64,000 nucleotides of DNA from Companilactobacillus heilongjiangensis. Lineage in GTDB: Bacteria > Bacillota > Bacilli > Lactobacillales > Lactobacillaceae. The notes beneath the pieces are model-generated. The model did not search any database. It was not told the origin of the DNA and was given only the letters and a program-made list of their open reading frames with translations. The DNA lies in contig NZ_CP012559.1 in NCBI RefSeq assembly GCF_000831645.3, positions 1-64,000 on the forward strand. Direction: 5' to 3'. Both the position numbers and the translations under genes were made by a program. Of this stretch, positions 3,309 to 58,373 are shown in pieces; position 1 is the first letter of the stretch; every line of letters starts with the position of its first letter.

Positions 3309-3500
3309 CTAAGCGAGCCGCCTTTGGTGGCGAGGTATGGAGTACCGCTATGGGACCGGTGCGAGCCAAGGTCTCGCGCCTCGATTTTGAGCTTTGCAAA
3401 AACCGCAAATCTCAAAATACGTCGGTGGAGTATGAGCAGAAAATCACTGCTCTAACACCACCTGCACTGCGGACTACATTACTGACACCTCCGGCTAGAA
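3309..3500 (+). repeat. palindromic intergenic element, copy A
   Basis: One of six full copies of a ~180-bp element. It begins GCCGCC, ends CGGCTAG and holds the shared core GGGACCGGTGCGAGCC near 3351, followed by GGTCTCGCG, CCTCGATTTTGAGC and CTCAAAA. Outer arms (GGTATGGAGTACCGC against GCGGACTACATTAC) are imperfectly complementary, and a second hairpin uses GAGCAG/CTGCTC. It lies between the ends of two convergent genes. Confidence 0.85.
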
Positions 3501-4872: not shown

Positions 4873-4916
4873 TTAGTTGGAAGAGCTGAGTGTATTCATC
4901 AGCTCTGGAAACGGCA
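4873..4916 (-). repeat. internally deleted remnant of the palindromic element
   Basis: Only the outer arms of the B/F subtype remain: TTAGTTGGAAGAGCTGAG, a short spacer, then CAGCTCTGGAAACGGCA. The core and inner hairpins are gone. It ends about five bases from the stop codon of the amino-acid permease. Confidence 0.75.
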
Positions 4917-7606: not shown

Positions 7607-10600
7607 TTATGCTCTTTTACGTTTTAGTTCACAGATTGAAATGAATCCTAAGATCAATACTCCCAAAATTGAGTAGAGAATATTGGCATCTTTGGAACCG
7701 GTCTGAGGCAAAAGACTATTTGAAGTATTAGTCCTTTGATAAGGAACAGATGGAACCATTGGATTGTTAGGTGTGAAGTCGGTAGTTGTGTCAGAACCGC
7801 CGCCACCGTTATCTGTATTTATTTGGTCGCCAGTACCGCCATTGCTACCGTTGTTTCCATTATTACCACCAGGATTGTCTGGAGTAAATGGAGTGCCAGG
7901 GTTATCAGGATTATCTGGGTTTCCTGGTGTCTTTGGTGTGTGAGTATTGGTAATCGTTATAACGTTGTTATTGGTTGATTGAGCAGCAGTATAACCAGAA
8001 ACAGCATCTTCTTGAACGCTGTAGTTGCCATTCTTGTCCAAGTTATTCCAAGTGTATGACCAAGCATTGAGTGAACTCAATTGAACCGCTTGACCAATTA
8101 CTGAGCCATTCTTCAAAAGATGAACGGTTACTTGGCTAGGACGTAGATTATCCTTATTATTGCTGTCATTCCAAAGTTTATTGACAGTTAGATTAGTTTT
8201 ATCGTCTTTTGTAGTTGTTGTGCTTGGCGTGTGAGTGTTGGTGATTTTCACATTGGTGGCGCTTGTCTTATCAATGTTAGATGTGTAACCAGAAACGGCA
8301 TCTTCAGAAACCGTATAGGTCGAAGCCTTGTCGAGTCCTGTGAAGTTGTGGGCCCAGTTGTTGTCTGCGTTTAGAGCAGATGAGTCAACTTCTTTACCAT
8401 CTTTGAAGAGGTGAATAGTAACTTGACTAGGGCGAAGATTATCTTTGTTGTTACTATCGCTCCATGTCTTAGTTACATTCAAGTTAGTTTTGTCATCAGT
8501 TGTGGTTGTTGTTGAAGGTGTGTGGGTATTGGTAATCTTTACGTCAGCTGGATCAGTTTGATTAATGTTAGTTGTGTAGTTATCAACATCATCTTCAGTA
8601 ACATGATATTTCGTAGACTTATCAAGTCCAGTGAATTCGTGGGTCCAGTTGTTGTCCGAATTGAGGACTGTTGAATCAACGTTGGTATCGTCAGCATTTA
8701 ATAAATTAACTGTTACTGATGAAGGACGAAGCTTGTCTTGATTATTATTATCGCTCCATATTTTAGTGACCTTCACGTTAGTTGTTGTGTCACCAGTGTT
8801 GCCACCAGGTGTTTTGTCTAACGTATTGGTGATTGTTGTGACAGTATCATCTGTATTATCGACAATCTTTTTGTCATAATCATTAACATTATCTTCATCA
8901 GCTGAGTATTGAATAGCTTTGCCATCAGCGTCATTCTTAGCTAAACCAGTCCATGTATAAGACCATTTACCATTAGTATCAGGTTTGATAGTTACAGGGT
9001 CGCCGGTTTTTGTACCATTGGCTGTTAAGTACACCGTGATAGAACTAGGACGTTTGGAACTATCATTATCAGACCAAATCTTGTTGACGGTAAAGTCGCG
9101 TGTATCGTCGGTTGGTGTGGTTGTTGATTTATATGTATTGGTGATGGTTTCTTTTGTTTTATCAATTTCAGATGACATGGTATATCCATCAGGTACGGTT
9201 ACTTCTTGGGCCGAGTAAGTTATTTCATTGCCGTCAGCATCATATTTTGGTAACTGGTTAGTTTCGCTTGCGGTATTGTTTGGATCATTGGCGCCAAATT
9301 TATATGTCCAGTTATTATCAGAATTCAAGGTAACTGGATCGCCTAGTGGTTGGTCACCTTGTTTATTGTCATTTTGATATAGTTGAATTTGAACAGAAGC
9401 AGGGTTGGTAACATTTTTATTGCCGCCGTCGTCCCAAACTTTGTTTACTGTTAAGCTTGTCGCAAGTGTATTAGTAATGGTTTTATCAAACTTGTTACCA
9501 TTATTTGTTGTCTGAGTGGCAATATAACCTTTGGGTGCAGACCAAGTAAAAACATCTTTACCATCGTTATCTATATAACCGATTTCTGAAACAGTCCAAT
9601 TGGCATTTGATGGTAAATTCTCCAAAGTATAGGTCCAATTATTGTCGGCACTCAAAGCGAAGACGTTATTTTTAGGGGCGCCATCACCATAAATACCGGT
9701 AAGAACAGGATTATGTTGATCTGCATTATTACCATCGTTCCAAACCTTAGTAACCTTCATTTTGGATAAAACGTTAGTAATATCATAATTGGTTGGATCA
9801 GTAATAGATGTGAAACCAGTAACAGGAGTCTCTTGAACGGTATAGTTGTAAGCATTACCATCATTATCATATTTAGGTAAGTTATTGAAAACATATGACC
9901 AATTGGTATCAGCTTTAATTGTTTTTGAAGCATAGGGTGTTGCTGAATTACCATTTTGAATCAAATTGATTGTGACAGAATCAGGTAACTGGGTCCCAGC
10001 AGGAACATTCCAAATCTTGTGACCCATAATTGAAGTTACTTGGTCACCATCGTGTGCATCACTACCAAGCGTTGTATTCGGTTGGTTGATTGTAATATTT
10101 TGTAGTTCATCTTTATTGGAAAGTAAGTCACCAGTATTTGAATAAGAGGTTGACTTTTCAGCTAAATTATCGATTTTAGTGTAGTAAGTGATGATTGCAG
10201 TTTGATCAATAGTACCTAAGTTTACATCAAACCCATCTTCAGTTGTTGTTGCGTTGATATCTGCAAATTTGTTTACAGCATCATTAGTGATATTACCGGT
10301 CGTATGATCAGCGGTGGCAGAATTAACTGTAATCGGATGATCAGCATCATTTAATAGGGTTTGATTTTTCCCTAATGTGTCTCGATAAATGGCATCAGGA
10401 ATTTTTTCGCCCTTATAGTTAACTCGGACGGTCCATTGAATAATGTCACCATTTTCGATGTAGCTACCGTACTTGTAAAGAATTTCATTAGGATCAGTCA
10501 CAGAGGCTTGTCCGACTGAAGCACTGCCTGTCGAATCGCTATTGTTTGTAGCTGTACCACTAACGTTCCAATCAATAGGAACGTTTTGATGTTCTTGGAC

Positions 10601-18061: not shown

Positions 18062-18244
18062 TTAGTTGGAAGAGCAGAGAGTATTTACCTGCAGCGGAAG
18101 TGGCGTTATGGCTTTAGCCATTACACCACTGGGCGTGTTGGAGACTTTCCGGGTTTTGGAAAGGCTTCAACCGAGATTCGAGACCGCTCTTTGGTTTGAA
18201 TCGTACCGCGCAGCAGATGAATACTCTCTGCTCTGGAAACGGCA
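18062..18244 (-). repeat. palindromic intergenic element, copy B
   Basis: On the minus strand it opens GCCGTTTCCAGAGC and ends TTCCAACTAA. The outer arms pair (AGAGCAGAGAGTATT with AATACTCTCTGCTCT, allowing one mismatch). The core is a variant, with GGTCTCGAATCTCGG and TTGAAGCC. A second hairpin uses GTGGTGTAATGGCT/AGCCATAACGCCAC. It is nearly the same as copy F. It fills most of the 405 bp between 17949 and 18353, which hold no gene I believe. Confidence 0.85.
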
Positions 18245-26167: not shown

Positions 26168-27526
<1,359 letters not shown>

Positions 27527-36372: not shown

Positions 36373-37716
<1,344 letters not shown>

Positions 37717-40598: not shown

Positions 40599-40613
40599 AT
40601 TTAAAAATTTGTT

Positions 40614-40791
40614 GCCGCCGAAGGGTGCGAGGAAATTGAGGTTGCAGTGGGACCGGCTCGAGCCAAGGTCTCGACCCTCGCTTTTGAGCCGAAAATCACG
40701 TCTCAAAAGACGTCCTGTGATGTAAGACCGGAAAATCGCCGGCCTAACATCACTATCACGGCTACCTCATTTCCTCGCACCCTTCGGCTAG
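40614..40791 (+). repeat. palindromic intergenic element, copy C
   Basis: Begins GCCGCC and ends CGGCTAG. The outer arms are nearly perfect: CGAAGGGTGCGAGGAAA pairs with TTTCCTCGCACCCTTCG. The core has GGGACCGG, GAGCCAAGGTCTCG, TTTTGAGCCGA and GTCTCAAAAG. The inner hairpin is GTGATGT/ACATCAC plus CCGG. It occupies the gap of about 395 bp between azoreductase and aldo/keto reductase, where I see no gene. Confidence 0.9.
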
Positions 40792-40890: not shown

Positions 40891-40912
40891 TGAATACTCT
40901 CAGCTCTGGAGA
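40891..40912 (+). repeat. short fragment of the palindromic element
   Basis: TGAATACTCTCAGCTCTGG is one outer arm of the B/F subtype without the rest. Like the remnant at 4873 it ends within a few bases of a stop codon (aldo/keto reductase, 40916). Confidence 0.55.
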
Positions 40913-42169: not shown

Positions 42170-42607
42170 ATGAAAGAATATAAGATACTTTATGAAGGCG
42201 AATTAAAGGTGGGAATGAGTGGTTCAGTTTCCAAACGTATTACTGAGGAAGACGTTGAAACCTTTGCCAAAGTAACGGTCGATTATAATCCAATGCATAT
42301 GGATCAAGAATTTGCCGAGAGTACACAGTTCCATAAACGTATCGCGCACGGAATGTTATCCGCCGGTATGATTTCAGCCTGTTTAGGCACAAAAATGCCT
42401 GGACCTGGGGCCATTTACTTAAATCAATCGTTGAGATTTGATAAACCAGTTTATTTCGGTGATGTACTTGTAGCAACAGTTACAGTCGAAAAGATTGACC
42501 AAAAAGCACATTTCCAAATTGCAACATTATCAACCGTTGTAACTAATCAGAATGGGGATAAAGTTACTGAAGGTGAAGCACAGATAATGCCTGCAAAGAA
42601 AGATTAG
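42170..42607 (+). CDS. MaoC-like (R)-specific enoyl-CoA hydratase (PhaJ type)
   Basis: A 145-residue hot-dog-fold hydratase that adds water to trans-2-enoyl-CoA to give (R)-3-hydroxyacyl-CoA, or the reverse. The hydratase-2 motif DYNPMHMDQEFA supplies the expected catalytic Asp38 and His43, followed by RIAHGMLSAGMISACLG. ATG 42170 has GAGG seven bases upstream. It has a cre-like site and is the first of several acyl-CoA genes here. The physiological acyl chain is unknown. Confidence 0.87.
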   Translation: MKEYKILYEGELKVGMSGSVSKRITEEDVETFAKVTVDYNPMHMDQEFAESTQFHKRIAHGMLSAGMISACLGTKMPGPGAIYLNQSLRFDKPVYFGDVLVATVTVEKIDQKAHFQIATLSTVVTNQNGDKVTEGEAQIMPAKKD

Positions 42608-42610
42608 AGA

Positions 42611-42738
42611 GTGGAGACAGGGCGGTCAGCTCCTGAGCATTTGCGTACCTTCACGAATTATCCGCGTTTTTTGCGGATGATTTGGGAAGGTATGCAAAGC
42701 GGAAGGAGTTGCCCTGTCGGAACTCGTTTCAGAGCCAC
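42611..42738 (+). repeat. complex 128-bp palindromic element of a different family
   Basis: Nested arms pair: GTGG/CCAC outermost, GACAGGGC/GCCCTGTC, CTCCT/AGGAG, TTTGC-TACCTTC/GAAGGTA-GCAAA, and ATCCGC/GCGGAT with six T in the loop. It is not a standard terminator because the T run is inside the loop; a separate terminator follows at 42755. It shares no core with the six-copy family. Confidence 0.65.
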
Positions 42739-42754
42739 TGCATATATAAACAGA

Positions 42755-45155: not shown

Positions 45156-45333
45156 CTAGCCAGTGGGGTGCAAGAATTTCACCTGTAGTGAAGTGTGTTA
45201 TAAGGACGTAAGTCCTTATAACACAGGACGACTTTTGAGACGCGACCCTCGGCTCAAAATCGAGGCGCGAGACCGTACTGTGGCTCGCACCGGTCCCACA
45301 TCAGGTGAAAATTCTTGCACCCCACTGGCGGCA
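45156..45333 (-). repeat. palindromic intergenic element, copy D
   Basis: On the minus strand it opens GCCGCC and ends GGCTAG. The outer arms CAGTGGGGTGCAAGAATTT and AAATTCTTGCACCCCACTG are fully complementary. The core GGGACCGGTGCGAGCC, GGTCTCGCGCCTCGATT and GTCTCAAAAGTCGTCC is typical. The inner hairpin TGTGTTATAAGGAC/GTCCTTATAACACA is perfect. It lies between convergent channel genes. Confidence 0.92.
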
Positions 45334-57825: not shown

Positions 57826-58008
57826 TGCCGTTTCCAGAGCTGAGAGTATTCATCTGCTGCGCGGCACGGCTCGAGCCAACGTGCGGTCTCGAACCTCGGT
57901 TGAAGCCTTTCCAAAAGCCGGAAAGTCTCCAACTCGTCCGGTGGTGTAATTGCTAAAGCAATAACGCCACTTTCGCGGCTGATGAATACTCTCAGCTCTT
58001 CCAACTAG
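57826..58008 (+). repeat. palindromic intergenic element, copy F
   Basis: Begins TGCCGTTTCC and ends TTCCAACTAG. The outer arms GAGCTGAGAGTATTCATC and GATGAATACTCTCAGCTC are perfectly complementary. The variant core holds GCACG/CGTGC, CGGTCTCGAACCTCGG and TTGAAGCCTTTCC. The inner hairpin is GTGGTGTAATTGCT/AGCAATAACGCCAC. A sister of copy B. Confidence 0.92.
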
Positions 58009-58198
58009 ATTATTTTTTTAATGGAGGTAATGATCTAATCAAAATTTCTGATTATTACATACATAGTAACTATTTACTATTGGACTTGTTTTTACTCGAG
58101 GCATTTCTAATTTAATAGAATAATTATTAAGAATCCGAGATAAATTACGTTGATAATCCGAGTTATTTTTAAATTTTATTTTCAGATAAAACATACTT

Positions 58199-58373
58199 TA
58201 GCTGGAGATTGGTAGTGATTTTCACCAGCTATGGGTGTGGCGTTATGGCTTTAGCCATTACACCACGGGGCGACTTTTGAGACGTGGTTTTCGGCTTAAA
58301 AGCGAGGTGCGAGACCTTGGCTCGCACCGGTCCCCATAGCAGGCGAAAAATCACTGCCAATCGGAAGCGGCAA
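58199..58373 (-). repeat. palindromic intergenic element, copy E
   Basis: On the minus strand: GCCGCTTCC-type opening, arms GATTGGCAGTGATTTT and AAAATCACTACCAATC (one mismatch), core GGGACCGGTGCGAGCC, AGGTCTCGCACCTCG and GTCTCAAAAGTCG, inner hairpin GTGGTGTAATGGCT/AGCCATAACGCCAC, end CAGCTAA. It lies 190 bp after copy F in the opposite orientation. The rest of the 786 bp between apbE and the esterase gene is AT-rich and empty. Confidence 0.9.

Follow-up and report, generated by a model that had tools for sequence, protein, structure and literature searches.

The palindromic repeats in the window (the whole stretch of 64,000 nucleotides of Companilactobacillus heilongjiangensis DNA that was analysed) belong to a family whose natural unit is a pair of cloverleaf-forming halves arranged as mirror images, and the pair at 57826-58372 is one complete unit of this kind. 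Mismatches within the stems, the kinds of double changes and the changes observed in place at orthologous sites indicate that the fold is apparently kept as DNA, not as RNA. The most probable reading, with a probability of roughly 0.55, is a non-autonomous MITE-like element composed of two DNA cloverleafs, the arms of which are kept paired by templated correction, by selection, or by both.

Copies in the window

The initial annotation reported six copies in the window. All six were borne out at the claimed sites and on the claimed strands by a covariance model trained on five of them, with scores of 138-168 bits each. Copies A (3316-3498, plus strand), B (18062-18244, minus strand) and D (45156-45333, minus strand) are single. 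Copy C is at 40613-40791 on the plus strand, and an exact match to the arm motif, 22 nt long, is found at 40891-40912 on the minus strand (0 expected in shuffles); this arm remnant is perhaps the lost or truncated partner of copy C. Copy E (57826-58008, plus strand) is the left half of the mirror pair and, according to folding and the covariance model, comprises the outer stem and three hairpins, with a T-rich stretch after them. Its 3' end is separated from that of copy F (58198-58372, minus strand), the right half, by an AT-rich spacer of 189 nt with 22% G+C (58009-58197). The arm sequence of F is unlike that of E. The covariance model also detected a remnant absent from the earlier list, at 4873-4916 on the minus strand, in which the core is deleted and only the arms are left.

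Each of the six copies is about 180 bp long, with a G+C content of 0.50-0.56 compared with 37% for the window. B and F had been grouped together by a divergent core, which was wrong: sequence comparison places B in the subfamily of E (87% identity over 204 nt), and the core of F, the copy listed earlier at 58199, resembles those of A, C and D. Rfam gave 0 matches across the window. By eye, neither a terminal inverted repeat (TIR) nor a target duplication is recognisable at the window pair.

Two other repeated features of the window should be mentioned. A second structured repeat, unrelated-looking and about 140-170 nt long, is at 42606-42741 on the plus strand. It is a very long hairpin, the arms of which vary by copy yet pair, and it occurs at more than 30 places in the same genome. 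Its sites include L062:11828-11969, L077:13608-13744, L077:3030-3173, L476:8346-8483, L480:18473-18608, L080:6557-6698 and L479:9106-9240; no Rfam family was found for it in the window, L077 or L080. In addition, the segments 26213-26773 and 36394-36954 are 70-72% identical. They are inside the open reading frames 26183-27526 and 36379-37716, which, judged from this similarity, are probably paralogous genes.

Fold and pairing of the arms

Each copy had been claimed to pair with itself, and all six indeed fold singly, with a long outer stem enclosing three hairpins. When the 5' arms of the six copies were scored against all 3' arms, the own-arm scores were 21 (A), 24 (B), 29 (C), 29 (D), 25 (E) and 24 (F); the own arm was never beaten by a foreign arm, with ties for A/F and B/E. 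Among 132 non-redundant copies, 87% of the cells of the 17-pair outer stem are Watson-Crick, compared with a mean of 46% and a maximum of 49% when the arms were shuffled between copies (500 shuffles). Several of these outer-stem pairs occur as all four Watson-Crick types with at least 93% pairing. In an alignment of 42 sequences, 40 of the 49 predicted pairs show at least one two-sided change. At a divergence of 0.3-0.4, 32,736 outer-stem cells are two-sided and matched versus 8,392 one-sided, these being counts of comparisons and not of independent events. The two-sided changes and the arm-shuffle test support the earlier proposal that the fold is preserved via compensatory change.

Exchange of whole blocks between copies was considered and rejected. 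A core at least 93% alike with arms less than 60% alike occurs in 30 of 8,357 copy pairs of the same genome, and these 30 pairs are ascribed to conversion of the core by another copy. Where copies are close, the arms differ mostly at single positions.

Changes of the arms in place were followed at sites shared with the sister species C. huachuanensis. With cut-offs of at least 0.78 for identity and at least 0.70 for arm identity, 16 of 39 same-strand syntenic pairings (11 of 27 plus 5 of 12) were kept; in one of them the C. huachuanensis copy also pairs with a second copy of C. heilongjiangensis, so that orthology is uncertain at some sites. Among the 257 outer-stem cells of these pairings, 214 are unchanged and 23 are changed on one side only; 19 have two-sided Watson-Crick changes, and 1 belongs to none of these classes. 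From the divergence of unpaired positions (0.15 and 0.12), the number expected by chance is estimated at about 2 for two-sided matches and about 60 for one-sided changes. Two-sided changes are more frequent and one-sided changes less frequent than chance; therefore, the pairing was maintained or restored after insertion. This co-change occurs in a genome where an IS4-family transposase was not found. The pairing in place is attributable either to template-switch correction of quasipalindromes, a known process (PMC7202029), or to selection for the DNA hairpin.

Mirror-pair arrangement and copy number

In a profile search, 106 matches, fragments counted, were obtained in 464 kb of the C. heilongjiangensis genome (the window plus twenty 20-kb stretches). 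The chromosome carrying the window has 2,790,548 bp, and the extrapolated copy number is about 640 per genome for this Companilactobacillus genome; if this number holds, the family occupies about 4% of it.

The occurrence of copies in both orientations, noted earlier, was confirmed, but the orientation of close neighbours is not random: it is nearly always plus then minus, with the 3' ends facing each other. In the 464-kb sample this order was found in 33 of 37 neighbours less than 600 bp apart, and in 47 of 52 close neighbours when six stretches of the same genome were added. In C. huachuanensis, 11 of 19 close neighbours are plus-minus, the remainder being seven minus-minus, some of which are fragments, and one plus-plus. 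Mirror pairs account for 33 of 38 close neighbours at other loci. Hand counts gave plus-minus in all 25 neighbouring pairs in 20-kb stretches from four other genera and in all three pairs from another Companilactobacillus; 16 of the twenty further 20-kb stretches were picked around matches, and antisense echoes of the same palindrome were ignored. There were no neighbouring pairs among the four stretches picked independently of matches. The same order was counted by hand in 12 of 12 pairs from 30 further loci and in 13 of 14 pairs from sparse genomes.

The mirror pair is taken as the ancestral unit, and single copies as remnants or derivatives. The halves are unequal in many pairs of the twenty stretches, one scoring far above the other. 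Fixed left and right types, hinted at by a few species pairs, were rejected because partners in C. heilongjiangensis resemble each other about as much as random copies do: the similarity is 0.670 for partners and 0.700 for random copies in this genome, 0.685 and 0.690 in others, and 0.696 and 0.769 in C. huachuanensis (n = 4).

Distribution

Of 301 Lactobacillaceae genomes, 88, belonging to 12 of 40 genera, contain the cloverleaf fold according to a covariance model built from 42 sequences. The scoring covered the best 8 candidates of each genome and hence gives presence and not copy number. Carriers by profile match include C. huachuanensis, C. nantensis, Levilactobacillus brevis, L. tujiorum, L. 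hammesii and Secundilactobacillus odoratitofui. Among the repeats of food lactobacilli, this is a large family. No match to the element was found in phages, and 13 matches in viral contigs came from a pattern scan and stand at the level of the sequence pattern only. The pattern scan of genome contigs also had unrelated bacteria among the matches listed, presumably by chance; one of them, L099, has a weak profile match. Plasmids gave a single copy, with a deleted core. This copy, at L092:98-203 on plasmid NZ_CP030091.1 of Limosilactobacillus reuteri, has a related tail; an IS30-family transposase is a few hundred bases away, and a predicted vat(E) resistance gene is elsewhere on the plasmid.

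A 2.8-kb segment carrying a cloverleaf is 99.9% identical across two genera (L371 and L372, from genomes G227 and G152). Homologues of its genes, with 70-74% DNA identity, also flank a cloverleaf in L043 of the C. heilongjiangensis genome. As far as these alignments go, such placement suggests transfer or a long-kept position.

Mobility and the related insertion sequence

Some copies in Companilactobacillus and in a second genus, g55, are bounded by a 14-bp TIR, CTAAAGGTTGAAAG, which occurs exactly 220 times in C. huachuanensis and 3 times in the C. heilongjiangensis genome. Pairs of TIRs separated by 200-1500 bp were collected, most of them from C. huachuanensis, and 17 of the 38 combinations are flanked by identical repeats of 6-9 bp; among these 17, one is an insertion sequence (IS) relic that lacks a cloverleaf, and the cloverleaf was checked in some of the units only. 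The other 21 combinations have no duplication, and some of them join the ends of different elements. Many TIR-bounded units are 310-332 bp long, and those that were read carry one cloverleaf. Genus g55 has two twin units, 522 and 542 bp long, that carry the CTAAAGGTTGAAAG TIR and duplications of 7 and 8 bp; a TIR pair with a 7-8 bp duplication was seen in only these 2 of the 8 units examined there. The sister species C. heilongjiangensis and C. huachuanensis are colinear, at 85% identity, along a chain of about 130 kb, in which sites filled in one of them are vacant or almost vacant in the other.

C. huachuanensis and another Companilactobacillus contain IS copies of 1,442-1,475 bp that end in the CTAAAGGTTGAAAG TIR or a variant of it; a copy of 1,562 bp, ending in a related TIR, was found in a genome of another family. 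The transposase of the TIR-sharing IS copies belongs to NCBIfam NF049925 of the IS4 family. The TIRs, the duplications, the filled and empty sites and the IS with the same TIR together support the reading of a MITE-like mobile repeat. The possibility raised in the initial annotation, that an ordinary IS or MITE explains the arms, was borne out by half: an IS4-type MITE accounts for the mobility of some copies, but no cloverleaf was found in the TIR-bounded IS copies scanned, and hence the arms are left unexplained by the IS.

The association with the transposase is partial. No match to an IS4-family transposase was found in the C. heilongjiangensis genome at E 1e-30, nor in 72 of the 88 carriers at the same threshold. 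The cloverleaf is present in 16 of 31 genomes with the transposase versus 72 of 270 without it (P 0.006, a value which ignores relatedness and assumes the same 301 genomes in both scans). Furthermore, the outer ends differ between lineages, being different again in Levilactobacillus-type units, and thus the constant part of the element is the cloverleaf and not the TIR.

Two local variants were observed. A subfamily of C. heilongjiangensis (L065:12755, L068:3511, L070:2940 and L074:10426) has near-identical cloverleafs and fast-diverging AT-rich tails; in one copy or more, the 14-bp TIR is replaced by another inverted repeat, ATACGCGTGGTGCTAGTT, at the outer ends. In C. huachuanensis (L242, within 9953-10563), a cloverleaf is split by a small insertion with inverted ends AAGGCTGCTGAAAAACTCC, which is apparently another small mobile element.

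Proposed mechanism and alternatives at the DNA level

In the preferred reading, the body of the element would consist of two imperfect palindromes, each about 140-200 bp long and able to form a cloverleaf, which mirror each other with their 3' ends inward around a variable spacer. The copies in the window would be copies and remnants of a mobile element common to many Lactobacillaceae. The IS4-family transposase of the 1.4-1.6-kb IS, or a relative of it, might move the TIR-bounded copies in trans. The arms are considered to form a hairpin or cruciform, which may be extruded in vivo. A change in one arm would be matched in the other by template-switching during replication, by selection for the DNA hairpin, or by both, the templated correction being the putative step. 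Any benefit to the element or the host is conjectural.

It is also possible, as a tentative proposal, that the twin cloverleaf is of old origin and has been retained as a DNA structure in hundreds of intergenic regions of lactobacilli because the extruded hairpins are of use to the host or to the element, and that it has been passed between lineages on different transposon ends. Such hairpins might insulate replication or transcription, or might serve as structure-specific ends for recombination or transposition. If this is true, a large family of DNA hairpins, not RNA, shows genome-wide compensatory evolution.

Alternatively, the cloverleafs could be the recognised ends of a transposon family of their own, with a structure-specific transposase or HUH-type enzyme binding the folded strand at the two inverted ends and the IS4-type TIRs acquired later as boundaries. 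The mirrored two-half architecture across genera, the variation of the outer ends by lineage and the many carriers without an IS4-family transposase would fit this origin, which is nevertheless unlikely: none of the loci examined contained a recognisable gene-bearing version, the occurrence of Y1 transposase does not follow that of the element, and duplications of 7-8 bp suit a DDE enzyme. Three candidates for an autonomous element were rejected. In G006 (L286), 3.3 kb between two TIRs contain a helicase (Helicase_C_2, DEAD), and a transposase remnant is close to one TIR. In the near-identical 2.8-kb segment of G227 and G152, the cloverleaf is amid ordinary-looking genes. In L297, a transposase remnant and another open frame are between facing cloverleafs about 1.4 kb apart, an arrangement tentatively read as neighbouring insertions.

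DNA or RNA

Covariation is usually taken as the mark of functional RNA. A structured non-coding RNA, in which the cloverleaf is transcribed and the RNA fold is selected, would account for the strong covariation combined with conserved core letters and internal mismatches, and for the intergenic position. RNA stems tolerate G.U and not A.C. On the sense strand, the mismatches in pairs more than 60% Watson-Crick, counted column-wise, are 82 G.T versus 147 A.C, even though the paired columns were defined by RNA folding software in which G.U counts as a pair. In 28 tRNAs of the same loci, each read in the register giving the most Watson-Crick pairs, the numbers are 21 G.T versus 1 A.C; an earlier, badly registered tRNA count gave 30 versus 10. 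The contrast between cloverleaf and tRNA has a Fisher P of 3e-8, for which the cells are not independent. A count on single folds gave 383 A.C versus 286 G.T; since it includes conserved mismatch positions, the column-wise count was relied upon. The excess of A.C over G.T is a 1.8-fold lean to pairing of the opposite strand. An RNA from that strand is less contradicted, yet 1.8 to 1 is far below 21 to 1.

The kinds of substitution point in the same direction. Compensation in RNA usually proceeds via G.U and hence via transitions. The ratios of transitions to transversions among two-sided changes in four divergence bins are 50:52, 283:216, 689:543 and 1833:1963, compared with 827:862, 1473:1571, 3490:3739 and 8995:10832 in unpaired columns. 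In the middle two bins, transitions are favoured among the double changes (56-57% versus 48%); among the one-sided changes, they are favoured in all four. It should also be mentioned that the halves of a pair lie in opposite orientations, and that a DNA hairpin or arm-to-arm copying is strand-symmetric. In five further copy-bearing loci, Rfam found only purine and TPP riboswitches and gave no match for the copies. With no preference for G.T, little transition bias in the double changes, oppositely oriented halves and no Rfam match, the structured-RNA reading offered in the initial annotation is disfavoured and seems improbable.

The cloverleaf family, with hundreds of copies per genome, therefore shows covariation without the RNA marks that were tested. 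It provides a data set for asking how far templated palindrome repair or selection for DNA hairpins imitates RNA covariation. It is also a caution for RNA-discovery pipelines.

Gene context

By a simple ORF-based call, the 5' sides of the cloverleafs are a median of 47 nt after sense genes (43 cases) and a median of 104 nt before the starts of antisense genes (52 cases), and the 3' sides are oriented to the intergenic middle. In Companilactobacillus, a T-rich 3' end follows the hairpin in 15 anchored copies of 30 tried. Both the closeness of the 5' sides to genes and this T-rich end would suit bidirectional terminators or insulators at the two edges of an intergenic region. This role has little probability, however, because the T-rich end is absent from the units of other genera examined and because the pairs occur in every gene context, 5 of 32 being between divergent genes.

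Comparison with known systems

BOX, RUP, ERIC and bcr elements are, like the cloverleaf element, abundant structured intergenic repeats, and the ends of parvoviruses are paired terminal palindromes which, like the two halves here, are inverted relative to each other; the Rfam searches gave no match for the cloverleaf copies. BIMEs are inverted palindrome pairs with a spacer. Compared with REPINs and BIMEs, each cloverleaf half folds by itself and is 140-200 bp long, target duplications occur, and a consistent Y1/RAYT partner is lacking. Movement by a RAYT (Y1) transposase, as in REPINs, is highly improbable. Inverted palindrome doublets around a spacer, a high copy number, single copies that are probably remnants and compensatory changes in DNA hairpins are shared features (PMC3116915), but the units far exceed the doublet spacings of 71 and 110 bp given there, target duplications are present, and PF01797 was found in 7 of 14 cloverleaf-positive versus 6 of 16 negative genomes tested.

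Stem-loop families have been counted in Lactobacillus johnsonii (PMC2267715). An earlier description of the cloverleaf family was not found in the open-access literature, to which the search was mostly confined, and the words "lactobacill" and "cloverleaf" do not occur in the MITE review PMC10969869.

The IS4-family IS (NF049925) has a 14-bp TIR identical to that of some cloverleaf copies; unlike these, its TIR-bounded copies scanned contain no cloverleaf. The element is also like the bacterial MITEs that are mobilised in trans by an IS transposase (PMC10969869): it is short and intergenic, no transposase gene is seen in it, and TIRs, duplications of 6-9 bp and a TIR-sharing IS are present. 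Some copies have all three of a TIR, a duplication and a related IS with matching ends. The differences are that the cloverleaf element has a conserved twin-cloverleaf body, absent from the IS, behind varied outer ends, and that its arms co-vary at the DNA level. This twin DNA cloverleaf with co-changing arms is considered to be new.
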